A DNA stretch of 64,000 bases from Actinomyces ruminicola. GTDB taxonomy: Bacteria; Actinomycetota; Actinomycetes; Actinomycetales; Actinomycetaceae. The position numbers and the translations under genes were made by a program. This document shows positions 7,788-28,491 of this stretch, piece by piece. The stretch spans positions 1 through 64,000 of the forward strand of contig NZ_FNIM01000005.1 in NCBI RefSeq assembly GCF_900103885.1, read 5' to 3'. Positions within the stretch are counted from its first letter, which is position 1, and the number at the start of each line of letters is the position of its first letter. The notes beneath the pieces were generated by a model. The model saw only the letters and a program-made list of their open reading frames with translations. It was not told the origin of the DNA and searched no databases.

Positions 7788-7841
7788 TCGGGTACGAAAA
7801 AAGCCCCGCCCACGGCGGAGCCCATGACTCACGAGTCTGCG

Positions 7842-7914
7842 TGGAGCTAGGGGGATTCGAACCCCCGACCTCTTCCATGCCATGGAAGCGCGCTACCAAC
7901 TGCGCCATAGCCCC
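7842..7914 (-). tRNA. tRNA-Ala (anticodon GGC), copy 1
   Basis: A 73-base tRNA on the minus strand. It has a 7-bp acceptor stem with the G3:U70 wobble pair that defines alanine tRNAs, a D arm, a 5-bp anticodon stem enclosing ATGGCAT (anticodon GGC, reading GCC and GCT), and a T arm with GTTCGAAT. The CCA tail is not encoded. The sequence is identical to the copy 111 bp away at 7953-8025. Confidence 0.95.
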
Positions 7915-7952
7915 TAAGGATGACCTGCCCACCGCGCCCGCGGTGGTGATCG

Positions 7953-8025
7953 TGGAGCTAGGGGGATTCGAACCCCCGACCTCTTCCATGCCATGGAAGC
8001 GCGCTACCAACTGCGCCATAGCCCC
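7953..8025 (-). tRNA. tRNA-Ala (anticodon GGC), copy 2
   Basis: Identical in all 73 bases to the tRNA at 7842-7914, with different flanking sequence. Tandem duplication of the GGC tRNA suits a genome where GCC is the dominant alanine codon. It lies downstream of the rsfS-phosphatase genes on the same strand. Confidence 0.95.
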
Positions 8026-13201: not shown

Positions 13202-13285
13202 GCCGGGCCGGTGCGGGCCGGACTCGACGGAATCAGGCTGTGGCCTGGTCGCGTCGCCGTCCGGCAGCCCAGGCGCCATGGGATC

Positions 13286-13323
13286 GGGGAGGGCGTCCGA
13301 GTCGATACTCGGACGCCCTCCCC
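13286..13323 (+). terminator. Rho-independent terminator after the dicarboxylate transporter
   Basis: Perfect 16-bp arms (13286-13301 and 13308-13323) around a 6-base loop, followed by GTTTCCCTT. It separates the transporter from the glycosyltransferase operon. Confidence 0.9.
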
Positions 13324-13492
13324 GTTTCCCTTCACGGCGCCCAGGCGGGCGCAACATCGAGGACGCGGGTCCGCCGCCGGTGACGCCGGCACCCGCCTTA
13401 GAGGACTCTCATAGTCATCTCATCGTCGTCTTCTGGGCGGACGGGAGCCTGATTGATGAAGTCGCCATCGGGCGATCGGAAAGAAGACTCCC

Positions 13493-14809
13493 ATGACTGA
13501 CAGACAACCCCCGGCACAGACCTTGGCCCCGCCGCCCGCGATCGCCGCGTCGGTTCCCATGCCTTCACCCGCGGCCCTCGCCCCCACGCCGACGCGCGCC
13601 CTAACGCTGCGTCCGCCCTCCCCCAGCATCCGCGTGGTGCTCTACAGCCACGACGCCCAGGGGCTGGGACACCTGCGCCGCAACCTGGCGCTCGCCCACC
13701 GGATCGCCTCAGACCTGCCCGCCCTCACCGGCGCCTCGGTCACCGGCCTGCTCGTGGCCGGCGTCTCCCCCTCCCCCGGGTTCTCCCTCCCCGCCGGCTT
13801 CGACTGGCTGGTGCTCCCGGGCTTCACCAAGAGCTCCGGCGGCTACCGTCCACGCGGCCTGCGCGGCACGCCCGACTCGCTGGCGACGCTTCGCTCCGGA
13901 CTGGTGGCCTCCGCCCTGCAGCGCTTCGCCCCGCACCTGGTGATCGTGGACCGCCACATCTACGGGGTCCGCAAGGAGCTGCGCGCGCCCCTGAAGCACC
14001 TGCGCGCCACCTGTCCCCACACCCGGATCGTGCTCGGTCTGCGAGAGGTGCTGGATGCACCGGAAGTCGCCGCCGCCGAGTGGCGCAACCTGGATGCCCC
14101 CGCCAACCTGCGGGAGCTGATCGACGAGGTGTGGATCTACGGCGATCCCGCTGTGCACGACCCGGTGGCCACCGGCGAGGTCCCGATGTCCCTGCGCGAC
14201 CGCGCCGTCTTCACCGGCTACCTGGCCAAGGGACGCAGCCTGCTGGACCACGGCCGCCGGGCGCCGGAGGACCCCTTCGTCCTGACCACCGTCGGCGGCG
14301 GCTCGGACGGCCTCGAGCTGCTGCGCAGCGCCGCCCGCATGGCCCCTCCCCCCGGCCACCGGCACGTACTGGTCACCGGACCGCAGTTGGACGAGGCCGG
14401 CTTCGACGCCGTGCAGACCGCCGCCGGCCCCGCTACCGAGGTGCACCGTGCGCTGCCCGGGTTGAGCCGATGGATCGAGCGCGCCGCGGCGGTGGTCGCC
14501 ATGGGCGGCTACAACACCGCCTGCGAGATCCTGGCCACCTCCACCCCGGCACTGATGGTCCCGCGCGAGCAGCCGCGGCTGGAGCAGCTCATCCGCGCCC
14601 GCGCCCTGCAGGCAGCGGACGCCGTCGACGTCATGCGCACCGCCGACCTCAGCCCCGAGGGGCTCACTGCCTGGGCCACCGGAGCCGTTACCAGGCGCGT
14701 GTCCCGCACCGGCCTGAACACCGATGGCCTGCCCGCCGCCGTCCGCCGCGCCGCCGCCCTGCTGCGCCCCCAGCTAGCAACCCACCACCTCCAGGAGAGA
14801 GCGTCATGA
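13493..14809 (+). CDS. Predicted glycosyltransferase, MurG/GT28-like (COG4671 type)
   Basis: A 438-residue protein. After a proline-rich leader of about 40 residues comes VLYSHDAQGLGHLRRNLALA, the GHLRR loop characteristic of the predicted COG4671 glycosyltransferases. The C-terminal half ends with VVAMGGYNTACEILATSTPALMVPRE, the nucleotide-sugar-binding segment of GT28 enzymes. The acceptor is unknown. It opens an eight-gene plus-strand operon; its TGA overlaps the next ATG (ATGA). A purine-rich AAAGAAG precedes the start. The early translation looks less conserved than the rest, so an internal start is possible but no better ribosome binding site is seen. Confidence 0.85.
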   Translation: MTDRQPPAQTLAPPPAIAASVPMPSPAALAPTPTRALTLRPPSPSIRVVLYSHDAQGLGHLRRNLALAHRIASDLPALTGASVTGLLVAGVSPSPGFSLPAGFDWLVLPGFTKSSGGYRPRGLRGTPDSLATLRSGLVASALQRFAPHLVIVDRHIYGVRKELRAPLKHLRATCPHTRIVLGLREVLDAPEVAAAEWRNLDAPANLRELIDEVWIYGDPAVHDPVATGEVPMSLRDRAVFTGYLAKGRSLLDHGRRAPEDPFVLTTVGGGSDGLELLRSAARMAPPPGHRHVLVTGPQLDEAGFDAVQTAAGPATEVHRALPGLSRWIERAAAVVAMGGYNTACEILATSTPALMVPREQPRLEQLIRARALQAADAVDVMRTADLSPEGLTAWATGAVTRRVSRTGLNTDGLPAAVRRAAALLRPQLATHHLQERAS

Positions 14810-16023
14810 CTCGCATCGGATACGTGCTCAAGGTCTACCCCCGCTTCTCGGAGACCTTCGTGGTCACCGAGATGCTCGCCCGCGAGGCGCTGGGCGACGA
14901 CCTGACCATCTACGCCCTGCGCCCCACCACCGACTCCCGCTTCCACCCCGAGATCGCCCGCATCCGCGCGCAGGTGAACTGGGTGCCGCGCCCGCGCCGC
15001 GCCATCGACATGTGGGAGCTGCTGGCCTCCTCGCTCAAGGAGCCGGACATGCGCACCCACCTGGCCGAGATCCTGCCCGCTGTGGCCGACCTGCCCGGAG
15101 ACGAGGTCGCTCAGGGGGCGGCGCTGGCCCGCAGCGCACGCGACGCGGGCATCACCCACCTGCACGCGCACTTCGCCTCCCTGGCGGGCCGCACCGCCTG
15201 GATCGCCTCCCGCCTGGCCGGCATCCCCTACACCGTCACCACCCACGCCAAGGACATCTACCACGAGTCCGTCGACCGGCTGTGGCTGCGCCGCATCTGT
15301 GCCGACGCCGACCGGGTGATCGCCATCAGCCGCTACAACGAGCGCAATCTGCACTCGCTGCTGGCCGGCACCGGCGCCCGCATCGAGCTGCGCTACAACG
15401 CCCTCGAACTCGACCGCTTCCCCTTCCGCCCGCCCGCACCGGCAGTCGGCCCCCTGCACATCGCGGCCGTGGGTCGGCTGGTGCCCAAGAAGGGATTCAA
15501 CGACCTCATCGACGCCGTCGGCATCCTCACCGAGGCCGGCGTGCCGGTGGTGGCGGACATCGCCGGGGAGGGCGAGGAGCACGACCGCCTTGCGGGGCAG
15601 ATCACCGCCCTGGGCCTGGCAGACCGCGTCAGGCTGCTGGGGCCGCTTACCCAGGCGGAGGTGCGCGCCCTGCTGGGCCGCGCCCAGGTGTTCGCCGCCC
15701 CCTGCGTCCCGACCGACGACGGCAACATCGACGGCCTGCCCACCGTGGTCCTGGAGTCCATGGCCTGCGGCACCCCCGTGATCGCCACCGAAGTCTCCGG
15801 CCTTCCCGAAGTGGTTCGCGACGGCGACACGGGGATCCTGCTGCCGCCCGGCGACCCGCAGGCACTCGCCCGGGCCCTGCGCGAGCTGGCGGAGGGAACG
15901 GTGGACCCGGCCCCGCTGGCCCGCAATGCCCGCGCCCTGATCGAGCGGGACTTCGACTCCCGCGCCCAGGCGGCCGTCCTGTCCGCCTGGCAGTCCAGCC
16001 CCCAACTCGAGGAGAGCCACTGA
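14806..16023 (+). CDS. Glycosyltransferase family 4 protein
   Basis: A 405-residue GT-B enzyme. The N-terminal domain has GYVLKVYPRFSETFVVTEM and THLHAHFA, as in WcaL/AmsK-type colanic-acid transferases. The C-terminal domain has VGRLVPKKGFNDLIDA and GLPTVVLESMACGTPVIAT, the EX7E-type region of family GT4 that binds the nucleotide sugar. Start and stop codons are fused with both neighbours (ATGA upstream, TGATG downstream), indicating translational coupling. It probably adds one sugar to a lipid-linked or cell-surface acceptor built by this operon; donor and acceptor are unknown. Confidence 0.9.
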   Translation: MTRIGYVLKVYPRFSETFVVTEMLAREALGDDLTIYALRPTTDSRFHPEIARIRAQVNWVPRPRRAIDMWELLASSLKEPDMRTHLAEILPAVADLPGDEVAQGAALARSARDAGITHLHAHFASLAGRTAWIASRLAGIPYTVTTHAKDIYHESVDRLWLRRICADADRVIAISRYNERNLHSLLAGTGARIELRYNALELDRFPFRPPAPAVGPLHIAAVGRLVPKKGFNDLIDAVGILTEAGVPVVADIAGEGEEHDRLAGQITALGLADRVRLLGPLTQAEVRALLGRAQVFAAPCVPTDDGNIDGLPTVVLESMACGTPVIATEVSGLPEVVRDGDTGILLPPGDPQALARALRELAEGTVDPAPLARNARALIERDFDSRAQAAVLSAWQSSPQLEESH

Positions 16024-17144
16024 TGCGCATCGCCTACATCTGCGCCGACCCGGGCGTCCCCGTCTTCGGCTCCAAGGGCGCCTCCGTCCACATTCAGGAG
16101 GTGGTGCGGGCGCTGCGCCGCGCCGGCCACGACGTGACCGTGTACGCGGTGCGCCGCGGCAACCTGGTGCCCGCGGACCTGACGGACCTGCACGTGCATA
16201 TCGTCCGGATCGATGCGGCCGACGCCGCCGCCCGCGAGCGCGCCCAGGCCGAAGCCGCCACCCTGTTGTCCGAGCAGGTGCGCGCGGACGGCGCCGACCT
16301 GGTCTATGAGCGTTACTCCCTGTTCTCCACCGCCCTGGCCGCCCTGGCCGACGCTGGCATCCCCGGCGTGCTGGAGGTGAACTCCCCGCTGATCGACGAG
16401 CAGCGCCATCACCGCGAACTGGTGGACGAGGCGGGGGCGCTGGCGGCCCTGCGCGCCCAGGTGCGCGCCGCCCGCACCATCGTGTGCGTCTCCGAGCCGG
16501 TGCGCCGCTGGGTGTGCGGGCACGCCGACGCCCCGCGTGCCGTCACCATCCCCAACGGAGTCAACCTGCAGCGGCTTACTCCCGCCCCGGAGGACCCCGA
16601 CCGCGTGATCGTCACCTTCGTGGGCACGCTCAAGCCCTGGCACGGCGTCGCCGACCTGCTGCGGGCCGCCGCGCTGGCCCGCCAGGAGTGGAGCCTGCGC
16701 ATTATCGGGGATGGCCCCGAGCTGGCCTCCCTGCGCGTCCAGGCGGTGGAGCTCGGCCTGGACGTGGACTTCCGCGGGGCCCTCGCCCCTCAGGACGTGC
16801 CCGCCGCGCTGGCGGGCACTGCCATCGGCGTGGCCCCCTACCCGGACCTGGGCGGCCAGGACGAGCAGTACTTCTCGCCGCTGAAGGTGTTGGAGTACCT
16901 GGCGGCCGGCCTGCCGGTGGTCGCCTCCGCCGTCGGCCAGCTGCCCCGGCTGCTCGACGGCATCGGGGTGCTGGTGCCGCCGTCCGACCCGGCGGCCCTG
17001 GCCGCCGCCCTGGACGACCTCGCCGTCGCCCCGCAGCTGCGCGCCCGACGGGGCGAGCTCGGACGCCGCCGCGCCGAGAAGCGCTACGGCTGGGACACCG
17101 TCGTAGCCCAGATCCTCAGTCAGGCGGAGGTGCAGCATGTCTGA
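16023..17144 (+). CDS. Glycosyltransferase family 4 protein
   Basis: A 373-residue GT4 enzyme different from its upstream neighbour. The N-terminus has a glycine-rich loop (GSKGASVHIQEVVRALRRAGHDV); then IPNGVNLQRLTP and FVGTLKPWHGVADLLRAA mark the start of the C-terminal domain, and SPLKVLEYLAAGLPVVAS carries the donor-binding glutamate region. The start shares a base with the previous stop and the end overlaps the ABC exporter gene by 8 bases. It is the third transferase of the operon, implying a product with at least two or three sugars. Confidence 0.9.
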   Translation: MRIAYICADPGVPVFGSKGASVHIQEVVRALRRAGHDVTVYAVRRGNLVPADLTDLHVHIVRIDAADAAARERAQAEAATLLSEQVRADGADLVYERYSLFSTALAALADAGIPGVLEVNSPLIDEQRHHRELVDEAGALAALRAQVRAARTIVCVSEPVRRWVCGHADAPRAVTIPNGVNLQRLTPAPEDPDRVIVTFVGTLKPWHGVADLLRAAALARQEWSLRIIGDGPELASLRVQAVELGLDVDFRGALAPQDVPAALAGTAIGVAPYPDLGGQDEQYFSPLKVLEYLAAGLPVVASAVGQLPRLLDGIGVLVPPSDPAALAAALDDLAVAPQLRARRGELGRRRAEKRYGWDTVVAQILSQAEVQHV

Positions 17145-19014
17145 GCCCCAGCTCACTCGCTCCGCCCTGGCCCGCACCCTGCGCCTGGTCGCCCCGAACC
17201 TGCGCCCGCAGGCCGGGCTGGTGGCGGGCGGCACTCTCGCCCTGCTGGCAGAGGTGGCCTTCCGCGTGGCCGAGCCCTGGCCCATGAAGATCGTCATCGA
17301 CTCGGTGCTGTCCTCGCTGGGGGCCGAGACCGGTTACGCGCCCGCGAGCCTGGTACGGCTGGTGGGACTGGGGGCCGCACTCATCGCGATCGTCGCCCTG
17401 CGGGCGCTGTGCAACTACCTGGCCACCGTCTCCTTCGCCCTGGCGGGCTCCCGCACCGCGATCGCACTGCGGCGCCGGGCCTTCCACCACGTGCAGACAC
17501 TGTCCCAGCAGTTCCACTCCCGCAACCGCAGCGCCGACACGGTCCAGCGCCTGGTATCCGACGTGGCCCGCATGCAGGACGTGGCGGTGACCGCCGGGCT
17601 GCCGCTGGCCGCCAACGTGCTGACCCTGACGGTCATGCTCGGGGTGATGGTCTGGCTGGACCCGCTGCTGTCACTCGTGGTGGTGGCCGCGATCGGACTG
17701 TTCTTCCTGGCCTCCTCGGGCAGCTCGAAGAAGATCACCTCCGCCGCCCGCCGCACCCGCAAGTCGGAGGGGCAGCTGGCCAACACCGCCCAGGAGGCGC
17801 TGAGCACCATCAAGGTGGTGCAGGCCTACGGGCTGGAGCCGATCGTGGAGGACCGCTTCGTAAACGCCAACCAGACCTCCCTGCACGCCGGCGTGCGCTC
17901 CCTGCGGCTGGCGGCCAGGCTGGAGCGCACCACCGACGTGATCGTGGGCCTGGCCTCCGCAGTGGTGCTGGTGGGCGGGGGCCTGCGGGTGCTGGCCGGC
18001 GCCATGACCCCCGGGGACCTGGTGCTGTTCAACACCTACCTGCGCACCACCATGAAGCCGCTGCGGGACATGGCCAAGTACACCGGCCGCATCGCCCGGG
18101 CCGCGGCCTCCGGGGAGCGAGTGGCCAACCTGATGGAGGTGCAGCCGGACATCGTCTCCCCCGCAGACCCGGTACCGCTCGGGCGGGTGCGTGGCGCCCT
18201 GGACTTCGAGGACGTGACCACCGAGTACGACGGCAACGAGATCCTGCACGGCGTAAACCTGGCCATCACAGCGGGCGAGCACGTGGCGATCATTGGCCCG
18301 TCCGGCTCCGGCAAGTCCACCCTGACCTCGCTGGTGGTGCGCTCGCTCGACCCGGTGGCGGGGCGGGTGCGCCTGGACGGGCATGACCTGAAGGACCTGG
18401 ACCTGACCGAACTGCGCGCCCAGGTATCGGTGCTGCACCAGGAGGCGGTCCTGTTCGCCGACACCATCCGGGAGAACATTCGCATGGGCCGCCCCGAGGC
18501 CACTGACGCCGAGGTGGAGGCGGCCGCGGTGGCGGCCGGAGCGCACGAGTTCATCGCCTCCCTGCCCGACGGCTACGACACCGTCGTCGGAGAGCGCGGC
18601 GGCACCCTGTCCGGCGGGCAGCGCCAGCGGGTCGCGATTGTGCGGGCCCTGCTGCGCGCCGCCCCGGTGGTCATCCTGGATGAGGCGACCACCGGCTTGG
18701 ACCCGGCCTCCTCCACGGCGGTGCTGGACGCCGTCGACCGGCTCTCGCGCGGCCGCACCCTGCTGGCGGTCACGCACGAGACCGAGGTCGCCATGCGCGC
18801 CGACCGGGTGGTGTGGATTGAGAACGGCCGGGTCCAGCTCGACGGCCCTCCGCAGCGGCTGCTCGCCGAATCCCCGGCCTTCCGGGCCTGGGCGGCTGCG
18901 GGCGCCGCACAGCGGGAGCTGCTCACCACCGCCAAGCGGGGCCCCGTCCCCACGAACGGCCGGGCCGATGATGCCCCCGATGGCGCCTCCAGGAGGACCC
19001 ATGTTCATCAGTAG
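17137..19014 (+). CDS. ABC exporter, fused membrane and ATPase domains (MsbA-like)
   Basis: A 625-residue half-transporter of type IV exporter fold. Six membrane helices span about residues 20-310. The ATPase domain follows, with Walker A GPSGSGKST (about 388-396), signature LSGGQRQR (about 492), Walker B VVILDE (about 511) and the switch histidine in LLAVTHE. It presumably works as a homodimer. Lying among glycosyltransferases, it is the likely exporter or flippase of a glycoconjugate. The last 20 residues look like a disordered tail, and the gene overlaps the next by 14 bases. Confidence 0.92.
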   Translation: MSEPQLTRSALARTLRLVAPNLRPQAGLVAGGTLALLAEVAFRVAEPWPMKIVIDSVLSSLGAETGYAPASLVRLVGLGAALIAIVALRALCNYLATVSFALAGSRTAIALRRRAFHHVQTLSQQFHSRNRSADTVQRLVSDVARMQDVAVTAGLPLAANVLTLTVMLGVMVWLDPLLSLVVVAAIGLFFLASSGSSKKITSAARRTRKSEGQLANTAQEALSTIKVVQAYGLEPIVEDRFVNANQTSLHAGVRSLRLAARLERTTDVIVGLASAVVLVGGGLRVLAGAMTPGDLVLFNTYLRTTMKPLRDMAKYTGRIARAAASGERVANLMEVQPDIVSPADPVPLGRVRGALDFEDVTTEYDGNEILHGVNLAITAGEHVAIIGPSGSGKSTLTSLVVRSLDPVAGRVRLDGHDLKDLDLTELRAQVSVLHQEAVLFADTIRENIRMGRPEATDAEVEAAAVAAGAHEFIASLPDGYDTVVGERGGTLSGGQRQRVAIVRALLRAAPVVILDEATTGLDPASSTAVLDAVDRLSRGRTLLAVTHETEVAMRADRVVWIENGRVQLDGPPQRLLAESPAFRAWAAAGAAQRELLTTAKRGPVPTNGRADDAPDGASRRTHVHQ

Positions 19015-20206
19015 CACGCGCAGCGCCGTAGACGCGGTGCTCGACCCGGACCGGCTCAGCCAGCTGGTGGGAGCCCCGGTGCGGGCCGCCCGGCTGCGCA
19101 TCAAGCCCGGAGTGTCGGTGACGGCCTCCCTGCTGGAGGCGGACAGCGGACGCTCGGCCGGCTGGGCCCGGCTGCTGTGGCCGGGCAGCCGGGTCAAGGC
19201 CGCCAAGGCCGCCCGTCGCGGCGCGCACCTGGGGCTGCGCACCCGCCAGCACGACACCGACGACGGCCTGCTGCTCCAGGTTGGAGAGGTGGCCGCCGAT
19301 CCGGCGCTGGTCAAGCACATCGCCCGGGCCCGCGAGATCGGGCTCCTGGATACCCTGGAGGGAAACCTGCTGCGCTACAACCCCCAGCGCCGCCTCGTCG
19401 TACGCACGCCCCGGGGCGTCGTGCGGGTCACCGCCGCCTCCCAGCACCGCGCCCTCGCCCTCCAGGACTTCGCCGCCGGTCACCTCTCCGTGCCCCCGCC
19501 GCTGCCCACGCCCGGCCACGCGGACGACGCACACCTGAGCGTGCAGGCATTCGTCGGCGACACCGACCTGGAACGTCACCACGACCCGGCGGCCACGGCC
19601 CGGGTCGGCGCCGCTCTGGCCGCCCTGCACGCCGCCACCACCGACCTGCCCGCAGCGCTCCATAACCAGCTGGAGACCACCTGCCCCGGCCCGCGCGCCC
19701 TGGCGCTGGCGCACGCCCAGGTGCTCTGTCACCTCGACCCGACGCTCGCCGCCCGGGTGCGTCGGCTCGGTCAGGCGCTTGCCCCCGAGTCGGCGCTCTC
19801 GCCACAGGGACTACCGGTGCTGTGCCACGGCGACGCCTCCCCCGACCAGGTGCTGGTCGAGCAGGCCTCCGGGCGGATCTGGCTGACCGACTTCGACCGC
19901 GCCCGGCTTGCTCCCGCCGCCGTCGACCTGGGCTCCTACCTGGCCGTGGCCGACCCCGCATCCGGGCAGGCGCTCCTGGCGGGGTACGCCGACGCCGGCG
20001 GGCGGGTACCGCCCGCGGACGAGCTGCGGGCCGCCATCGCCCGGGCCCGGCTGGCCCGCATACAAGACCCCCTCCGCCACGGCGACCAGCAGTGGCGCCG
20101 TCGGCTGGCCGCCGAGATCGATCGGATCGAGCGGCTGCTCGCCCCGGCCCGGCGGACTCACGACCGCGCCGCCGACGCCGCTGGATGCTCTCGGGAGGCG
20201 TCATGA
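19001..20206 (+). CDS. APH-fold phosphotransferase, copy 1
   Basis: A 401-residue protein. The C-terminal half carries the kinase catalytic loop HGDASPDQVLV and the metal-binding LTDFDRA, then VDLGSYLA, as in the aminoglycoside/choline kinase superfamily. The usual HxDxxxxN motif reads HxDxxxxQ. The start at 19001 was chosen because AGGAGG lies just upstream; it overlaps the ABC gene by 14 bases. Location in a glycan operon, next to a second APH-fold gene, suggests phosphorylation of a sugar or lipid-linked intermediate rather than drug resistance. The substrate is unknown. Confidence 0.85.
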   Translation: MFISSTRSAVDAVLDPDRLSQLVGAPVRAARLRIKPGVSVTASLLEADSGRSAGWARLLWPGSRVKAAKAARRGAHLGLRTRQHDTDDGLLLQVGEVAADPALVKHIARAREIGLLDTLEGNLLRYNPQRRLVVRTPRGVVRVTAASQHRALALQDFAAGHLSVPPPLPTPGHADDAHLSVQAFVGDTDLERHHDPAATARVGAALAALHAATTDLPAALHNQLETTCPGPRALALAHAQVLCHLDPTLAARVRRLGQALAPESALSPQGLPVLCHGDASPDQVLVEQASGRIWLTDFDRARLAPAAVDLGSYLAVADPASGQALLAGYADAGGRVPPADELRAAIARARLARIQDPLRHGDQQWRRRLAAEIDRIERLLAPARRTHDRAADAAGCSREAS

Positions 20207-21309
20207 GGCCCGCCGCTCCTGTCCGCACCGACGCCTCCACGCCGTCGGCCATGGCGCGGCTGCAGCAGGTGCCCGGGCTGCGCCGGGCCTGGCCCGATGG
20301 GGACCGGGGCCTGGTCTTCGAGAGCCTGGACGCGGCGGGCCGCCTGCGCGCCGGCAGGATCGACAGCTTCGGGCGGCTGGAGCTGCTGCCCCATGCCGAG
20401 GATCCGGCCCTGCCCGACCTGTCGCCGAGCCTGCTGCCGCCGTCAGGAGACGGCAGGCTGGTGGTGCACCGGGCCGGACGGCGCGCCGTGGTCCTCGGCA
20501 CGGACCGGGTGCGCAAGCTGGTGCGCGCCGGCCGGGCCGCGAGGCTGTCCGACCCGCATCTGGCCCGCCCGTTCCTGCGGGCGGGCCTGCGCACCGCCGA
20601 GGTGCTGGACCGCTCCCCCTCCCGAGTGGACCTGGAGCTGCTGCCCGGAGCCTCGCTGCACGACCTGGGGGACGCCGGCCTGCCCGGCTGGGAGCGACTG
20701 GCCGAGCTGTGGCCCGGTGCCGTCCGCCCCGAGACGCTGCCGGAGCACACCGGGGCGGATGAGGCAGCGGTGCTGCGCCGCTGGCACCGGCGGGCGCAGG
20801 CGCTGGGGGCGCTCGCCCCGGTCGGGGCCGCACCGGAGGCGCTCGCGGCCGCCGTCGGGGCGGTGTGTGCCCGACTGGCCGAGCCCGGCGAGGCGCCGGC
20901 GGCCTCCCACCGAGACCTGCACGACGGCCAGCTGCTGTGGGACGGCAGCACCCTGTCCCTGCTCGACCTGGATACCGCCGCCCTGGCGGAGCCGGCCCTG
21001 GACCTGGGCAACCTGGCGGCACACGTCGACCTCATGCGCGCCCAGGGGCGGCTTGGCGCGGCGGCGCACGCGCGAGTGAGCGCGCTGCTGCACGGGCTGG
21101 GCCGCGGCCTGGCCGGCGCGCCCCGCCTGTCCGTCTACTACCTGGCGTCCCGCCTGCGGCTGAGCTGCGTGCACGCCTTCCGCCCCGGCGCACAGGCGTG
21201 GCTGCCCGCCTGGACCGACACCACCCTGCGCCTGGCCGGCCGTCCTCTTGACGCCTGGGAGGCCCGCGGGGACACGGAGCGCGACGGGCCGGGCACAATA
21301 GACACGTGA
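20203..21309 (+). CDS. APH-fold phosphotransferase, copy 2
   Basis: A 368-residue protein with low similarity to its neighbour but the same C-terminal elements: HRDLHDGQLLW, LLDLDTAALAEPALDLGNLAAH. Again the catalytic-loop asparagine is replaced by glutamine (HxDxxxxQ). The N-terminal half (about 150 residues) is less recognisable. It is coupled to the upstream kinase gene by ATGA and to the sensor kinase by GTGA. Two divergent kinases side by side may act as a heterodimer or on successive intermediates; this is inference. Confidence 0.8.
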   Translation: MRPAAPVRTDASTPSAMARLQQVPGLRRAWPDGDRGLVFESLDAAGRLRAGRIDSFGRLELLPHAEDPALPDLSPSLLPPSGDGRLVVHRAGRRAVVLGTDRVRKLVRAGRAARLSDPHLARPFLRAGLRTAEVLDRSPSRVDLELLPGASLHDLGDAGLPGWERLAELWPGAVRPETLPEHTGADEAAVLRRWHRRAQALGALAPVGAAPEALAAAVGAVCARLAEPGEAPAASHRDLHDGQLLWDGSTLSLLDLDTAALAEPALDLGNLAAHVDLMRAQGRLGAAAHARVSALLHGLGRGLAGAPRLSVYYLASRLRLSCVHAFRPGAQAWLPAWTDTTLRLAGRPLDAWEARGDTERDGPGTIDT

Positions 21310-22769
21310 AGGTCACCGCCCCGTTCTCCCGGGCGACCATCCGCACCCGGATCATGTGGACGATCGTCCTGGTCGCGTCGGTGGCGCTGGCGACGTCCGG
21401 CGCCGCCGTGTGGGTGCTGGACCTGCGCTCCACGCACGCAGACATCGACGACCGCCTCGTGCTGACCCGCCAGGAGCTGCGTCGGCTGGCGGACACCGGC
21501 GTCGATCCCGTCACCGGGACACCGCTGACCGACCCGACCCAGGTGCTCCAGACCTACATGGGGCACTCGGTGCTCGGCTCGGGTGAGGGGCAGCTCGGGA
21601 TCGTGGACGGCTCCGTGCGCCTGGTGTCCGCCGAGGGTGTCGACATGCGCCCGGAGGCGGACGCCGAGCTGGTCAAGCGGCTGCTGACCATGGCGGAGGC
21701 GGGCGTGTCCACCATCAAGACCGTCGACACCGCCGCCGGGCGCTACCGCGTGCTGGTGGTGCCGGTGACCGATGGGACCACGACGGCGGCCCTGGTACGC
21801 GCCGTCGACCTGAACGTCGCCGAGGCGGGCCTGTGGCGCACCATGCGGCTGTACGCGGCAGCGGCGGTCGTCACCGTGGCACTGGTGACGGCACTGGCCT
21901 GGCTGGGCATCGGCCGACTGCTGCGTCCCATCTGGGAACTGCGCAACGCCACCGAGTCCATTGACGAGCGCGACCTGACCACCCGGGTGCGCGTGCGCGG
22001 GCGGGACGACCTGTCCGCACTGGCGGCCGCGGTCAACCGCATGCTCGACCGGGTGCAGCGGGCGGTGGAGGCCCAGCGCGAGCTGCTCGACGACGTCGGG
22101 CACGAGTTGCGCACCCCGATCACGGTGGTGCGCGGGCACCTGGAGCTCATCGATCCCGAGGACCCCGCCGATGTGCAGCAGACCTCCGAGCTGGCCCTGG
22201 ACGAGCTGGACCGGATGAGCACGCTCGTCGGCGAGCTGCTGGAGCTCGCCCGCAGCTCCCAGAGCGACTTCGTGTCCCCCGAGCCCACCGACGTGGAGAC
22301 GCTGACTCTGCAGGTGTTCGACAAGGCCGGCGCGCTGGGGGAACGCCGGTGGCAGTTGGAGGAGTGCGCCTCCGGCACCGCCGTGCTCGACCCGGCACGC
22401 ATCACCCAGGCCTGGCTGCAGCTGGCCGCGAATGCGGTCAAGTACTCCGAGGCGGACTCGCGCGTGTGGCTCGGCTCGGCCATATCCTCCGGCCCGTCCC
22501 CGGACGCCGCCGAGCTGCGCGCCTGGGTGCGGGACGAGGGCATGGGGATCGCCCCCGCGGACCTGGAGAGGGTGCGCCGTCGCTTCGCCCGCACCGCGCA
22601 GGCGCAGCGGCGCGCCTCCGGCTCCGGGCTGGGGCTGAGCATTGTGGACAACATCGTCGCCGCCCACGGCGGCCGACTCGACATCACCTCCGAGGTCGGG
22701 AGAGGATCCGTGTTCACCTTGCGCCTCCCCCTCACCTCCCCTGCTCAAACGCCCTCCGACACAGCATAA
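21306..22769 (+). CDS. Two-component sensor histidine kinase
   Basis: A 487-residue membrane kinase. It has a first membrane segment at about residues 16-38, an extracytoplasmic sensor of about 130 residues, a second membrane segment near 180-200, HAMP, the H-box DVGHELRTPITVVRGHLE (His near 266), an N-box LQLAANAVKYSE, and G boxes DEGMGIA and GSGLGLSIV. It starts with GTG fused to the preceding stop, so it is translated as part of the glycan operon. It likely senses an envelope signal and partners with the regulator just downstream. Confidence 0.93.
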   Translation: MKVTAPFSRATIRTRIMWTIVLVASVALATSGAAVWVLDLRSTHADIDDRLVLTRQELRRLADTGVDPVTGTPLTDPTQVLQTYMGHSVLGSGEGQLGIVDGSVRLVSAEGVDMRPEADAELVKRLLTMAEAGVSTIKTVDTAAGRYRVLVVPVTDGTTTAALVRAVDLNVAEAGLWRTMRLYAAAAVVTVALVTALAWLGIGRLLRPIWELRNATESIDERDLTTRVRVRGRDDLSALAAAVNRMLDRVQRAVEAQRELLDDVGHELRTPITVVRGHLELIDPEDPADVQQTSELALDELDRMSTLVGELLELARSSQSDFVSPEPTDVETLTLQVFDKAGALGERRWQLEECASGTAVLDPARITQAWLQLAANAVKYSEADSRVWLGSAISSGPSPDAAELRAWVRDEGMGIAPADLERVRRRFARTAQAQRRASGSGLGLSIVDNIVAAHGGRLDITSEVGRGSVFTLRLPLTSPAQTPSDTA

Positions 22770-22777
22770 GGAGACCT

Positions 22778-22813
22778 GTGAACGACATGAACAAGCCTCT
22801 GGACGCGCCATGA
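22778..22813 (+). CDS. Possible 11-codon leader ORF coupled to the response regulator
   Basis: A GTG at 22778 preceded by AAGGAG opens an 11-codon frame (MNDMNKPLDAP) whose TGA overlaps the response regulator ATG (ATGA). The regulator itself has no Shine-Dalgarno of its own in front of 22810, so ribosomes probably load here and re-initiate. It could be a pure coupling device or a decayed gene start. No homology can be judged at this length. Confidence 0.45.
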   Translation: MNDMNKPLDAP

Positions 22814-23472
22814 GCACAGTACTGATAGTGGAGGACGAGGCCCGCATCGCCTCCTTCCTCACCAAGGGCCTCAAGGCCGCCGGATTCGCGCCCAAGGTCG
22901 TGGACAATGGGCGCGACGCCATCGAGATGGCACTGCTGGGAGACGCCGACATCATCCTGCTGGATGTCGGCCTGCCGGACATCGATGGGTTCGAGGTGCT
23001 GGAGCGGCTGCGCGGGCAGGGCGTGAGCACCCCGGTCATCATGCTCACCGCCCGCTCATCCGTCGCGGACAGGGTGGCCGGCCTGGAGGGCGGCGCCGAC
23101 GACTACCTGCCCAAGCCCTTCTCCTTCGACGAGCTCGTGGCCAGGATCCGCCTGCGACTGCGCCCGCGCGAGGCGGCGCCGACCGAGCCGGGAGTCCTGG
23201 AGCACGAGGACCTCGCCCTTGACATACGCAAGCGCCGGGTGCGGGTGGACGGGAACTGGGTGGACCTGTCGGCGCGCGAGTTCGCGCTCGCCGAGATGTT
23301 CATGCGCCACCCCGGGCAGGTGCTGAGCCGGGAGCAGCTGCTGGCCAATGTGTGGGGGCTGGACTTCGACCCGGGTTCGAACGTGGTGGACGTGTACGTG
23401 TCCTACCTGCGGAGCAAGCTCGGCAAGGACCGGCTGGAGACGGTGCGCGGAGTCGGCTACCGGCTTTCCTGA
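22810..23472 (+). CDS. OmpR/PhoB-family response regulator
   Basis: A 220-residue regulator. The receiver domain has VEDEARIA, the phospho-acceptor in LLDVGLPDIDG (about residue 51), MLTARS and KPFSFDEL. The winged-helix DNA-binding domain (about 125-218) ends in the usual VDVYVSYLRSKLGKD...TVRGVGYRL. It is the last gene of the glycan operon and presumably the partner of the kinase at 21306. Kinase before regulator is the less common order. Confidence 0.95.
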   Translation: MSTVLIVEDEARIASFLTKGLKAAGFAPKVVDNGRDAIEMALLGDADIILLDVGLPDIDGFEVLERLRGQGVSTPVIMLTARSSVADRVAGLEGGADDYLPKPFSFDELVARIRLRLRPREAAPTEPGVLEHEDLALDIRKRRVRVDGNWVDLSAREFALAEMFMRHPGQVLSREQLLANVWGLDFDPGSNVVDVYVSYLRSKLGKDRLETVRGVGYRLS

Positions 23473-23563: not shown

Positions 23564-23935
23564 TCAGTCATCGTCCTTGTCATCGTCATCCGCAGCATCA
23601 GAGTCATCACCGTTGTCAGGATCAGGATCGTCGTCGACGTCGGTGTCGTCGCTGCTCGTCTGCGGAGTGACGGCCTGCGGCGGGGCCGGCTGCACCACCT
23701 CGGGCTCATCGTCGTCACCGTCGTCGGACCGGTCGTCATCTGCGGAGGGGCTCATGACGGGGCCGGTGCTGCGCGCGACCGGGGCGCTGGCCGTCGCGGC
23801 CGGTGTTACGGCAATGCCAGGCTCATCACCGAGACTGGCCGGGCGTCGCATGACCAGGACGCCCACGCACACGAGCAGCAAGGCTGCCGCGACGGCGACG
23901 ATTACCGCCAGCGCCCTGCCACGGTCGGGATTCAT
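23564..23935 (-). CDS. Small membrane-anchored protein with strongly acidic tail, function unknown
   Basis: A 123-residue protein. One membrane segment near the N-terminus (ALAVIVAVAAALLLVCVGVLVM) precedes an extracytoplasmic tail that is Pro/Ala-rich and then almost purely Asp/Ser (ends DAADDDDKDDD). The ATG at 23935 has a good AGGAGG upstream, which supports translation. It begins 57 bases after proA and is probably co-transcribed with it. Such aspartate-rich tails can bind calcium or other cations, but no domain is recognised. Confidence 0.65.
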   Translation of the reverse strand: MNPDRGRALAVIVAVAAALLLVCVGVLVMRRPASLGDEPGIAVTPAATASAPVARSTGPVMSPSADDDRSDDGDDDEPEVVQPAPPQAVTPQTSSDDTDVDDDPDPDNGDDSDAADDDDKDDD

Positions 23936-23992: not shown

Positions 23993-25312
23993 TCAGGGGC
24001 GCACGTGTCCCTCCCCCTCGACGACCCACTTGGTGGTGGTCAGCGCCGCCAGGCCCATGGGGCCGCGGGCGTGAAGCTTCTGGGTGGAGATGCCCAGCTC
24101 GGCGCCCAGCCCCAGCTGCCCGCCGTCGGTGAAGCGGGTGGAGGCGTTGACCATGATGGCGGCCGAGTCGACGCCGGCGACGAACCGGTTCATGGCCGTC
24201 ACGTCCTGGGTCAGGACCGCCTCGGTGTGTCCGGTTGAGTATGCGGTGATGTGGGCGATCGCGTCGTCGATGGTGTCCACCACGCGCACCGCCAGATCCA
24301 GGCTACCGTACTCGGTCTCCCAGTCCGCCTCGGTGGCCTCCACGAGCAGCTCCGCGCGGCCCTGTGCGGCGGCCTGCTCCTCCAGGCAGGCGCGGGCGGC
24401 GGCGTCGGCGTGCAGCGTGACACCGCGCTCCCACAGGGCGTCCGCGGCGGCCGGCAGGTAGGCGGAGGCGGCGGAGCGGTGCACGAGCAGCGTCTCGGCG
24501 GCATTGCACACGCCGACCCGCTGGGTCTTGGCATTGACAATGATGTCCACCGCGGCGGCCAGATCGGCGGCGGCATCGACATACACGTGGCAGTTGCCCG
24601 AGCCGGTCTCGATCACCGGGACGCTCGACTCCTCCACGACCGCCCGGATCAGGCCCGCCCCGCCGCGCGGCACGAGCACGTCGATCAGACCGCGCGCGTG
24701 CATGAGGGCGGTCGCCCCGGCCCGGCCTGCCGGGTCGACGGTGGTGACCAGGTCGGCGGGCAGCCCCGCCGCCGCCAGGGCGTCGCGCAGCACGGTGATG
24801 ATGGCGGCGTTGGTGGCGGCGGCCGCGCTGCCGCCGCGCAGCACGACGGCGTTACCGGACTTCAGGGTCAGGGCGGCCACGTCCACGGTGACGTTGGGGC
24901 GGGCCTCGTAGATCATGCCGACCACGCCCAGCGGCACGCGCACCCGCCGCACCCGCAGCCCATTGGGCAGTGTCTGACCGTCGACGATCTCGCCGACCGG
25001 GTCGGGCAGGGCGGCGATCTCACGCAGAGAGTCCGCGATGGCGGCAATACGGTCGGTACTCAGGGCCAGGCGGTCGATGAGCCCCGGCTTCATGCCGGAC
25101 TCCCGCGCCCGTTCCAGGTCCTGGGCGTTGGCGGCGAGAATGGCCTCGGTGCGGGCGGTCAGGGCATCGGCCAGGGCGTGCAGGGCGGCGTCCTTGCGCT
25201 CCCGATTCAGACCGGCCAGGACGCGCTGGGCCTGGCGGGCGGCGCGAGCGGTGGTGGCAACGAGGGCTTCGGCGTCGTCGGCGGAGCCGGTGGCGGCGGT
25301 TGAGGTCGTCAT
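23993..25312 (-). CDS. proA: Gamma-glutamyl phosphate reductase
   Basis: A 439-residue NADPH-dependent enzyme that converts gamma-glutamyl phosphate to glutamate semialdehyde in proline synthesis. Family landmarks include [28 protein letters not shown] and the catalytic cysteine segment [17 protein letters not shown]. The ATG at 25312 (MTTSTAATG) fits the family; upstream in-frame residues look non-coding. A TAGAGT 8 bases before the ATG may be the -10 of a nearly leaderless promoter. proB lies upstream on the same strand but 423 repeat-filled bases away, so proBA is no longer a tight operon. Confidence 0.96.
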
Positions 25313-25474
25313 GACACCCGACTCTAGCCGCACCCGCGCCGGGCGGGTAGGCGTCAGCCTACGCACGGCGTCGTGTATCTACGACGAGGTCGCTGGCACG
25401 CGCGCCGATAGCCACACCCGCGGGCGACTCCGACGTCGATGTGGTGCGCGCCCTCGCGCCTGTGGGCAGCGATT

Positions 25475-25594
25475 GTCCGAGATCGGCACAAACACCGTGT
25501 TCAGCACCGCGGGCTGGAAACAAAACCGCATGATTTCAACGATCACTCAGACGCCGTTCGGTGCGAGCGCCTCGTTTGTGCCGATTCCGGACAT
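25475..25594 (+). repeat. 120-bp dispersed element, copy 1, with imperfect terminal inverted repeats
   Basis: The left end GTCCGAGATCGGCACAAAC and the right end (reverse complement GTCCGGAATCGGCACAAAC) match at 17 of 19 positions, so the element is bounded by inverted repeats. It aligns without gaps to 52140-52259 at about 84 of 120 positions, best at both ends and around the central ACCGCATGAT. It is non-coding and MITE-like or REP/BIME-like. Confidence 0.75.
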
Positions 25595-25625
25595 TTCTCC
25601 GCGGACCGGACGGTGTCCGCACCAG

Positions 25626-25710
25626 TTCTACCGATCTCGGCACGTAACTTCTACCGATCTCGGCACGTAACTTCTACCGATCTCGGCACGTAACTTCTAC
25701 CGATCTCGGC
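25626..25710 (+). repeat. 23-bp tandem array with CCGATCTCGG core (three full units plus a partial)
   Basis: The core CCGATCTCGG, itself a CCGA-TCGG dyad, starts at 25631, 25654, 25677 and 25700, exactly 23 bp apart; units read CCGATCTCGGCACGTAAC plus TTCTA. The first three are identical. The array ends just before the 3' end of proB. The same unit occurs at 57794-57826 and 61848-61880. Confidence 0.9.
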
Positions 25711-25735
25711 GAGGGGAAGGCGGGGAGACAAGACG

Positions 25736-26932
25736 TCAGGCTCCGGCGGTGCGGGGCAGCTCGGCCAGGTCGTCGCGGTGCACCACCGGTGCCACGTGGT
25801 CACCGGGGGCGGGCGCGCCACGGCCTCGGGCCTCCAGCACCTCCTCGATCTCGGCGGCGGCATAGCGGCAGATGCCGCGGGCCAGCACCCGCTGCGGCCC
25901 CACGATCTCCACCACCGACCCGGACTCGAAGTCCCCGTCCACGCCGACGACACCGGGCAGCAGCAGGGACTTCTTCCCCTCGGTGACCGCTTGGGCGGCC
26001 CCGGCGTCGACGAGTATGCGGCCCTCGGGCATCGAGGCGTGCGCCATCCACAGCCTCCGGCTGGAGCGGTGCGGCCCGGTGGGCGCGAACCAGGTGCCCA
26101 GGTCCGCGGGAATGGTGCGCCCGCCGAGCAGCCGGGGGGCGTCGTCGGCGTCGGCGATGATCGTGGCCGTACCGGAGGCGCAGGCGATGGTCGCGGCCTG
26201 CACCTTGGTGGCCATGCCGCCGGTGCCCAGGGCGCCGGCGTCGCCGTCCACCCGCACGCCCGCCAGCTCGCCGCTGCCGCCGACGTAACGCACCGGGCGG
26301 GCACCGGGCGTGCCCGGGCGGGCGGTCCACATGCCGTCCACGTCGGTGAACAGGATCAGCACGTCTGCGGTCACCAGGTGGGACACCAGCGCCGCGAGGT
26401 GGTCGTTGTCCCCCAGGTTGAACTCGGTGGTTGCCACCGCGTCGTTCTCATTGACCACCGGCACCGCCCCCATGGACAGCAGCGTGTCGAAGGTGGCGCG
26501 CACGGTCCGGTAGTGGCTGCGCACGGCCACGTCCTGCGCGGTCAGCAGCACCTGCGCGGTCACGGTCCCATAGGCGCTCAGGGCGGTCTGCCAGCGGGAG
26601 ACCAGGCGCCCCTGCCCCACGGAGGCGGCGGCCTGCAGCAGGCGCAGCTCGCCGGGGCGGGATTCCAGCCCGAGCGGAACCAGCCCGGCGGCGACGGCGC
26701 CGGAGGAGACCAGGACGACGTCGTGCCCGCGGCGGCGCATCCCTGCCAGCAGCCCGGACAGGATGTCGATGCGGTTCAAGTCCAGTCCACCGTCGGGGCG
26801 GGTCAGTGAGGAGGAGCCCACCTTGAGGACGACGCGAGCGCCCTCGGGCAGGGAGTCGGGACGCAGGCCGGCACCTGTATCACTGCCGGCCGTCCGCGCC
26901 GCACCTGCGGCAGCCGCGTGCATGGCGCTCAT
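25736..26932 (-). CDS. proB: Glutamate 5-kinase
   Basis: A 398-residue kinase that phosphorylates glutamate in the first step of proline synthesis. It has an amino-acid kinase domain ([11 protein letters not shown] near the N-terminus, [25 protein letters not shown] and [12 protein letters not shown]) and a C-terminal PUA domain. The ATG at 26932 overlaps the obgE stop (ATGA). An ATG three codons further in is an alternative start. Feedback inhibition by proline is usual for the family. proA is separated from it by repeats. Confidence 0.96.
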
Positions 26933-28491
26933 GCGTCCTCCCAGGTGGTCGCGTCGGTCCACAGCCCCTCGGCCGCCTCGTCCCGCAGCTGCTGGCGGGC
27001 GGCCTCCTTGGCGTCCATCCGCTCGTGGTAGTGCTCGCGCCGCTCGGCGTTCGTACGCCGATGCCGGTCCTCCAGGCGGGCGTCGGTGCCGCGGGCGCCC
27101 AGCAACTCCGCGCCGGTGGTCACGGAGGGCTCCCAGGTGAAGATCACGCCGCCCTCGACGTCGCCGATCAGGACGGTGTCCCCGGCATGGGCTCCGGCCT
27201 TGGCCAGCTCGTCCTCGACGCCGCCGGCGGCCAGCCGGTCGGCCAGGTAGCCGACGGCCTCGTCGTTGGAGAAGTCGGTCTGGCGCACCCAGCGCTCGGG
27301 CTTCTGACCGCGCACCTGGTAGACGGTGCCCTCGACGGGGTGCTGGATGACCGCCACGGTGGCGGCCGCGTGCCCGCCGCGACGGCCGACGGGGGCCGGG
27401 CGGATGATGGGCCGGAGCTCCGCGGTCGCCGTCGACGCCTGCTCGCGGGCACGCTGCACCAGCTCGGCCAGGGCGAAGGACAGCGCCGACAGTCCCGCAT
27501 GGGAGACCGCCGAAACCGTGAACACGGGCAGCCCGCGCCCGGCCAGGTCCGCCTCCACCAGCTCGGCCAGCTCGGCCGCCTCGGGAACGTCGACCTTGTT
27601 GAGCACAACCACGCGCGGGCGCTCCATCAGCGGCGGCAGCCCGGTCAGTGCCGGGTCGGTCTCGTCCCGGCCGAGCCTTTCGGCGTAGGCCGCCAGCTCG
27701 GCCTCGATGGTGTCGAAGTCGCTCAGCGGGTCGCGGCCCGGCTCCAGGGTGGCGCAGTCCAACACGTGCACCACCACGGCACAGCGCTCGATGTGGCGCA
27801 GGAACTCCAGACCCAGGCCCTTGCCCTGGCTCGCGCCCGGGATCAGTCCGGGCACGTCCGCCATGGTGTAGCGGACCTCGCCGGCCTCCACCACGCCCAG
27901 GTTGGGGGTCAGCGTGGTGAAGGGGTAGTCGGCGATCTTGGGGCGGGCGGCGCTCATGGCGGCGATCAGGGAGGACTTGCCGGAGCTGGGATAGCCGACC
28001 AGGGCGACGTCGGCGACGGTCTTCAGCTCCAGGGTGATGTCGCGGGCGTCGCCGGGCTCTCCCAGCAGGTGGAAGCCCGGTGCCTTGCGCTTGGGAGAGG
28101 CCAGGGAGAAGTTGCCGCGACCGCCGCTTCCGCCCTCGGCGACGACGACGCGGTCGCCGGCGCGGGTCAGATCCGCCAGGACGGTGCCGTCAGAGTCCTT
28201 GACGACGGTTCCCAGCGGCACCGGCAGCTCCAGGTCCTCGCCGTCGGCGCCGCGATGCCAACCGCCTTGGCCGGGGGTGCCGGAGCCGGCCCGGCGATGC
28301 GGTGAGCGGTGGTAGGTCAGCAGCGTGGTCACGCGCGGGTCGGCGGCCAGGATGACGCTGCCGCCGTGGCCGCCGTCGCCGCCGTCGGGGCCGGCCAGCG
28401 GCTTGAACTTCTCACGGTGGATCGAGGTGCAGCCGTGGCCGCCGTCGCCGCCGGCGACGTGCAGGACCACTCGGTCGATGAAGCTGGGCAT
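26929..28491 (-). CDS. obgE: GTPase Obg (CgtA)
   Basis: A 520-residue ribosome-assembly GTPase. The glycine-rich OBG fold covers about residues 2-158 ([31 protein letters not shown]). The G domain carries GYPSSGKSS at 166-174, [10 protein letters not shown] and NKVD. A C-terminal OCT domain (about 380-450) precedes a charged extension. It works in late 50S assembly and stress signalling. The gene follows rpmA and is coupled to proB by overlapping codons, the standard actinobacterial order. Confidence 0.97.

Follow-up and report, generated by a model that had tools for sequence, protein, structure and literature searches.

Organisation of the operon

A 64,000-nucleotide stretch of the Actinomyces ruminicola genome (3.10 Mb; assembly GCF_900103885.1, contig NZ_FNIM01000005.1, positions 1 to 64,000 of the forward strand; hereafter the window) carries an eight-gene operon for three glycosyltransferases, an ATP-binding cassette (ABC) exporter, two APH-fold kinases and a two-component system (TCS). 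It is preceded by a set of repeats which we posit to be the binding site of the operon's own regulator. These features, and a gene convergent with the operon, are listed below with the names used throughout.

13396..13440, + strand: operator CCTTAGAGGACTCTCATAGTCATCTCATCGTCGTCTTCTGGGCGG, half-sites TCTCAT, TCTCAT and TCTTCT at 11-bp steps
13493-14809, + strand: GTa, GT-B glycosyltransferase with a GT28/MurG-like C-terminal half
14806-16023, + strand: GTb, GT4 glycosyltransferase
16023-17144, + strand: GTc, GT4 glycosyltransferase
17137-19014, + strand: ABC, type IV (ABCB/MsbA-like) half-transporter
19001-20206, + strand: APH1, APH-fold kinase with motif HGDxxxDQ
20203-21309, + strand: APH2, APH-fold kinase with motif HRDLHDxQ
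21306-22769, + strand: HK, sensor histidine kinase with HAMP, HisKA and HATPase_c domains
22810-23472, + strand: RR, OmpR-family response regulator with Response_reg and Trans_reg_C domains
23564..23935, − strand: single-pass anchored protein with an Asp-rich tail, convergent with RR and matched by neither Pfam nor NCBIfam models

The seven genes from GTa to HK overlap by 4, 1, 8, 14, 4 and 4 bases at successive junctions, which agrees with the overlaps of 1–14 bases from 13493 up to the sensor kinase reported in a sequence-only reading of this DNA. Pfam domains likewise match the families assigned there (GT28-like, two GT4, MsbA-like exporter, two APH kinases, HK and RR); the COG4671 label for GTa comes from that reading alone. 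Overlaps are common in other loci as well (65/82, 60/77, 61/74, 48/66 and 48/64 junctions, with start codons picked by script). They do not support the additional claim that the products are made in fixed proportion, and suggest translational coupling rather than fixed amounts. HK and RR are separated by a 40-base gap without overlap. An 11-codon GTG frame (VNDMNKPLDAP; window 22778-22813, + strand) follows a GGAG and shares an ATGA overlap with the RR start; it is possibly a coupling mini-gene between HK and RR.

Conservation of the gene order

A GTa pattern scan of a species-level collection of named genomes returned 437 relatives, of which the best 80 were kept; the closest named locus among these 80 is that of Actinomyces succiniciruminis (GTa 87%). 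The order GTa-GTb-GTc-ABC-APH1-APH2 is present in 66 of the 70 loci from named genomes in which 8 kb or more of downstream sequence is available. These genes are regular neighbours in other Actinobacteria, which does not refute the earlier reading. Kinases are fused in three of the exceptions (L126, L131, L136) and the fourth (L133) shows neither kinase; L135, where the kinases are also fused, is counted among the 66. Because GTa served to select all loci, the counts describe what accompanies it and say nothing on the frequency of the other genes by themselves. Preservation of the order across families supports the interpretation of the locus as one functional unit.

Among 36 relatives of the same genus, GTa is found at 1e-100 or better in 24, as a fragment in one (G016), weakly in one (G002) and not at all in 10, with the six genes in order in 22/25 loci. 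The exceptions include L033, which ends at a contig edge, and the two partial copies of G013, one without APH1 (L037) and one without GTc and APH2 (L046). At class level, 8/148 genomes including the host encode GTa at 1e-20. Five of the other seven (G040, G085, G106, G133, G178) have all six genes, G106 with two additional, less complete loci; the contig of G062 ends after three genes, and in G123 the profiles show GTa and ABC only.

Two further copies were observed. The operon of G016 (L059, 8205-12076) is decayed: GTa, GTb, APH1 and APH2 survive as fragments and nothing there matches ABC, while the operator, kinase and regulator are still present. A contig titled Vibrio cholerae 35D (L151, WNZI01000053.1) holds an Arthrobacter-like copy of the cluster and is probably contamination.

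A shared operator and a dedicated two-component system

Short conserved blocks lie upstream of GTa in close relatives, one of them consisting of half-sites at 11-bp steps, a spacing used by OmpR-type regulators. In the host this operator lies 53–97 bp before the GTa start. The matrix consensus of the operator is caTGAGAg..cTCTCATc.....CTCAt...C.tCT.at. A matrix trained on 31 loci of other families, with the host genus excluded (L137 and L144 are Propionibacteriaceae by title and L145 an unplaced Actinomycetales bin), scores 34.6 at 13396-13440, the top of 127,912 window positions; the next reaches 3.4. Genome-wide, two consensus patterns (26 and 25 bases, up to 2 mismatches) find this operator as their sole site. 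More loosely, TCTCAT-N5-TCTCAT within 3 mismatches occurs in 69/82 loci versus about 5 in mononucleotide shuffles; the 82 derive from 85 loci after removal of L060, which lacks GTa, and of L084 and L088, which start too near GTa.

Presence of the operator, defined as a matrix score of 14 or more, follows the kinase. It was found at 41/42 loci holding the kinase, 7/8 with the kinase elsewhere in the genome at 41% or more, 8/14 with the kinase elsewhere at 34–39%, and 0/3 without it, these counts sharing loci with the training set. Outside that set are twelve loci that were retrieved from 25 genomes through their similarity to the kinase: nine have the site, eight of them scoring above 30, compared with one match (16.5) among 66 control pieces of 4.4 kb. 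The same DNA site thus stands both at the operon and at unlinked TCS loci (9/12 versus 1/66). At the latter it precedes the gene for an acidic protein in L162, L163, L170 and L171. In L164, and through a second site in L163, it stands before the TCS operon, and the target gene is ambiguous in L168, L169 and L173.

The kinase itself is also tied to the operon. In a test covering 16/37 same-genus genomes it was found at 1e-35 in 5/5 operon-bearing genomes (host and decayed G016 counted) and in 0/11 operon-free ones. Kocuria (L126) and Rathayibacter (L122) encode kinase and regulator upstream of or convergent to the cluster, and the best host match of their kinases is HK (250.6 versus 111.5 bits and 254.5 versus 108.1 bits for the next). 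Judged by this co-occurrence and by the shared operator, the TCS is dedicated to the operon, as had been proposed when the unit was credited with its own sensor and regulator. Regulation of the operon by its own TCS is accordingly well supported at the level of sequence, from which we infer both RR binding to 13396-13440 and the direction of regulation. MtrAB was rejected as an identity for the TCS (187 bits for MtrA and 153 for MtrB, where the NCBIfam cut-offs are 300 and 450), and the heavy-metal, MtrA and PhoB models fit RR about equally, none reaching its cut-off.

An anchored protein with an acidic tail

The convergent gene at 23564..23935 represents a class of small proteins that was sought by rule rather than homology (membrane-anchored, Asp-rich tail; 109–204 residues). 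In 2.18 Mb of loci, 46/47 such frames lie within 1.5 kb of the kinase, regulator or APH2, zones that make up 29.9% of the bases. TCS loci with enough flank have the frame in 43/51 cases, or 42/50 after removal of one genome duplicate; it is lacking in L047, L133, L143, L150, L164, L166, L172 and L173. The protein also accompanies the TCS family where the TCS lies away from the operon. Its gene has an operator of its own in L084, L125, L131, L136, L140 (gene identified by eye), L162, L163, L170 and L171; the host gene has none. These associations make the acidic-tail protein a probable third partner of the TCS. A charge-based contact between it and the HK sensor was considered and found no support, since the charge calculated for the sensor region of 25 sequences is neutral or slightly acidic. 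In L131, L136 and L140 a CAAX-protease-like (Rce1-like) membrane protein is encoded downstream of the acidic gene (by Pfam in L131, by eye in the others).

Glycosyltransferases, exporter and kinases

GTa matches Glyco_tran_28_C (PF04101) at 8e-5, scoring 23.1 bits where the cut-off is 22, and its best Protein Data Bank (PDB) profile match is MurG (1f0k, 1e-9). GTb (GT4, PF00534, 1e-35) is closest to 2jjm (8e-30), with the PimB'-type 3okc at 4e-28, and GTc (GT4, PF13692, 5e-24) to the D-inositol-3-phosphate glycosyltransferase 7qsg (5e-24) and PimA (4n9w, 1.5e-22), such that both resemble PimA, PimB' and MshA-type enzymes. A teichuronic acid (tua) locus was rejected, with GTb scoring 81 bits of 550 for TuaC and GTc 51 of 550 for TuaH.

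The exporter combines ABC_membrane (PF00664, 6e-42) and ABC_tran (PF00005, 1e-33), joining transmembrane and nucleotide-binding domains in one chain with Walker A GPSGSGKST and signature LSGGQRQR, as in type IV ABC exporters; its PDB matches include ABCB1, Sav1866 and MsbA (best 60 of 169). It is not assigned as the lipid A flippase MsbA, scoring 369 bits against the TIGR02203 cut-off of 602.

Both kinases match the APH domain PF01636 (APH1 8e-17, APH2 6e-6) and retain the hallmarks of the fold, namely HxD, a metal-binding residue at +7 and a second Asp, with Gln replacing Asn at +7. Gln at that position is found in maltokinases too. Invariant residues are H276, D278, Q283 and D297 in APH1 (32 aligned sequences) and H236, D238, D255 and D257 in APH2 (34 aligned sequences), Q243 of the latter being almost invariant. 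Because the catalytic Asp residues are kept, with Gln at the Asn position, APH1 and APH2 are probably catalytically active. In L126, L131, L135 and L136 a single open frame encodes both, a fusion that is good evidence for their acting jointly. The class V lanthipeptide kinase LxmK was rejected as a counterpart (32 and 22 bits against the NF038156 cut-off of 315).

A nucleotide-sugar dehydrogenase associated with the operon

Most relatives of the same genus encode a nucleotide-sugar dehydrogenase between APH2 and the kinase, and 43/70 named-genome loci have one, in varying orientation and sometimes upstream or on the opposite strand. It scores 334 bits with TuaD versus 131–141 with UDP-ManNAc models and passes the TIGR03026 subfamily cut-off, such that its substrate is probably UDP-glucose. 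The nearest relative in the host genome (57%) is on another contig, by eye among polysaccharide-type genes. For the 27 loci without the gene, genomes were searched for 25 (L084 and L127 excluded; 24 genomes covered) and 20/24 encode it elsewhere; within the genus it is present in 8/9 operon-bearing genomes tested (G016 counted). The link between dehydrogenase and operon is real yet not strict. Action of the regulator on the unlinked host copy was rejected, as the DNA upstream of that copy holds no operator (5 mismatches in the best match); in L117, L149 and L152, repeat sites with weak scores (14.8–18.2) precede copies that are transcribed separately.

Flanking region

One further feature lies upstream of the operator:

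13285..13324, + strand: terminator-like hairpin of 18 pairs, after the preceding Dcu-type transporter gene

The hairpin is weak by count: the window has one such site, and shuffled sequences have 1.1 on average. Downstream of the operon are proA-, proB- and obg-like genes (window 23993-28491, − strand). Within the genus, genes flanking the operon often include proA (24 of 109 loci) and nadD (28 of 109), with nine genomes counted twice, which suggests that the operon occupies a fixed slot in the genus. A tandem pair of tRNA-Ala(ggc) genes lies at 7841-8025 of the window (− strand).

Proposed function and alternatives

Gene order, families, catalytic motifs, operator and TCS dedication can be read from the sequence, and on this basis we posit that the operon, under the control of the TCS, assembles a short and probably acidic glycolipid and flips it, a proposal to which we give about an even chance of being correct. 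GTa would put the first sugar onto a lipid at the inner membrane leaflet, and GTb and GTc would lengthen the saccharide, with UDP-glucuronic acid provided by the dehydrogenase that many relatives encode in or beside the cluster and the host elsewhere. Phosphorylation of the sugar, or of a precursor, would fall to APH1 and APH2, and a homodimer of the MsbA-like half-transporter would flip the product outward. HK and RR, with the anchored Asp-tailed protein, may sense an envelope signal; phosphorylated RR would then bind the repeats upstream of GTa and induce the operon, with positive feedback as the operon carries the HK-RR genes. We infer the lipid acceptor, the uronic acid in the product, the kinase substrates, the flipping and the signal, and assembly inside followed by flipping is the simplest reading. 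The sequence-only reading saw a complete build-phosphorylate-export line for a short glycoconjugate. Such a line is compatible with the data; the word "complete" is not supported, as relatives add the dehydrogenase and the TCS has an extra partner in the acidic-tail protein.

Several observations weigh against a TCS-controlled glycolipid line. The operator score is low despite the presence of the kinase in L093, L089, L146, L102, L109, L083, L086 and L103, the low-scoring kinase loci including three Corynebacterium bins, and the kinase loci L165–L167 (43–45% identity) lack the site. At unlinked TCS loci the site is often found in front of the acidic-protein gene instead of HK-RR, and autoregulation is therefore evident only in some loci. 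Both the relatives' dehydrogenase and the host copy (334–380 bits) fall below the TuaD equivalog cut-off of 700. The uronic-acid link is loose because a close dehydrogenase is missing from 4/24 genomes (L112, L136, L140, L142; two are metagenome bins), the best match in G013 is only 30%, and the gene is also present in 5/11 operon-free same-genus genomes. APH1 and APH2 match solved phosphotransferases weakly (best 2e-9 and 7e-5), and peptides and drugs are also among the substrates of type IV exporters.

That last point bears on an alternative we consider unlikely, in which the product is a secreted, lipid-free small molecule, glycosylated and phosphorylated, with phosphorylation protecting the producer and the ABC protein pumping it out. 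The exporter family includes drug and peptide pumps, the APH fold is familiar from antibiotic-resistance enzymes, and presence is patchy, with the strong GTa match in 24/36 same-genus relatives. Yet none of the 30 recurring gene clusters reads as aglycone or deoxysugar genes (some had no Pfam match), and apart from the core, dehydrogenase and TCS no cluster occurs in more than 15/87 loci; moreover, the glycosyltransferases resemble lipid- or inositol-using enzymes, and a single architecture shared by several families is more in keeping with an envelope component than with a product that diversifies. Similarly improbable, in our view, is that the genes make the undecaprenyl-linked repeat unit of a wall polysaccharide, the ABC protein being a PglK-like flippase and the initiation, polymerase and ligase functions lying elsewhere. 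The PglK model matches the ATPase half of the exporter (1.7e-40) and the host dehydrogenase lies in a polysaccharide-type neighbourhood, but the PglK score is 139 bits against a cut-off of 1000, under those of MsbA-related models (369–381). Initiating enzyme, polymerase and ligase went unrecognised in the 30 recurring clusters (most judged by eye, ten by Pfam), and no glycan polymerase or ligase was found among the ten run through Pfam, three of which had no match at all; this test can overlook short or fast-evolving genes, and the acidic-tail protein escaped it.

Least probable, and in our view very unlikely, is envelope remodelling under phosphate limitation, with an acidic glycolipid in place of phospholipids. 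In one study, Mycobacterium tuberculosis in phosphate-free medium had 31 glucuronyl-diacylglycerol species versus 6 (PMC12722247), which would favour it. Two phosphate-consuming kinases fit badly with such a role, however, the even-handed, sub-threshold matches of RR do not single out PhoB, and the TCTCAT-type operator is unlike the PhoP box.

Relation to known systems and significance

The proposed glycolipid line has partial counterparts among known systems. Like MsbA/PglK-type flippases of lipid-linked saccharides, the exporter is a half-transporter of the same superfamily encoded beside glycosyltransferases, whereas the operon is actinobacterial and has two APH-fold kinases and a dedicated TCS, and the exporter reaches neither the MsbA nor the PglK cut-off. 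Actinobacterial glucuronyl-diacylglycerol/lipomannan anchors (the MgtA pathway) likewise involve GT4 enzymes and depend on UDP-glucuronate, as proposed here; they differ in that the present operon joins a GT28-like enzyme, two kinases and an exporter. VraTSR and HbpS-SenS-SenR too combine HK and RR with an extra membrane or secreted protein, which here is instead a short anchor with an Asp-rich tail. CutRS of Streptomyces is likewise an actinobacterial TCS acting at the envelope and was rejected as an equivalent: the CutR site is TAWATAAA (PMC12802291), unlike the TCTCAT repeats.

Consistent with the earlier statement that no pathway with this exact set was known, the literature searched contained no assignment of the gene set to a polymer, and no published description of the gene set, operator or acidic protein, only some of the searches having been aimed at them. 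The parts belong to known families; their combination, the operator and the acidic partner are apparently undescribed, on the evidence of that literature.

More speculatively, and with rather low expectation that it will hold in full, the locus may represent an undescribed, widespread actinobacterial envelope-response system. Kinase, regulator and a membrane-anchored poly-Asp antenna for cations or cationic peptides would control, via one operator, a six- or seven-gene line for a flipped, phosphorylated uronic-acid glycolipid of a new class. If so, the cell would counter a positively charged threat with more negative surface charge. The analysis turns loosely annotated genes (437 GTa relatives by pattern) into one testable unit of operator, sensor, partner and export line, and the operon opens a direct route to a surface molecule made by Actinobacteria of mouth and soil, and to its controlling signal.

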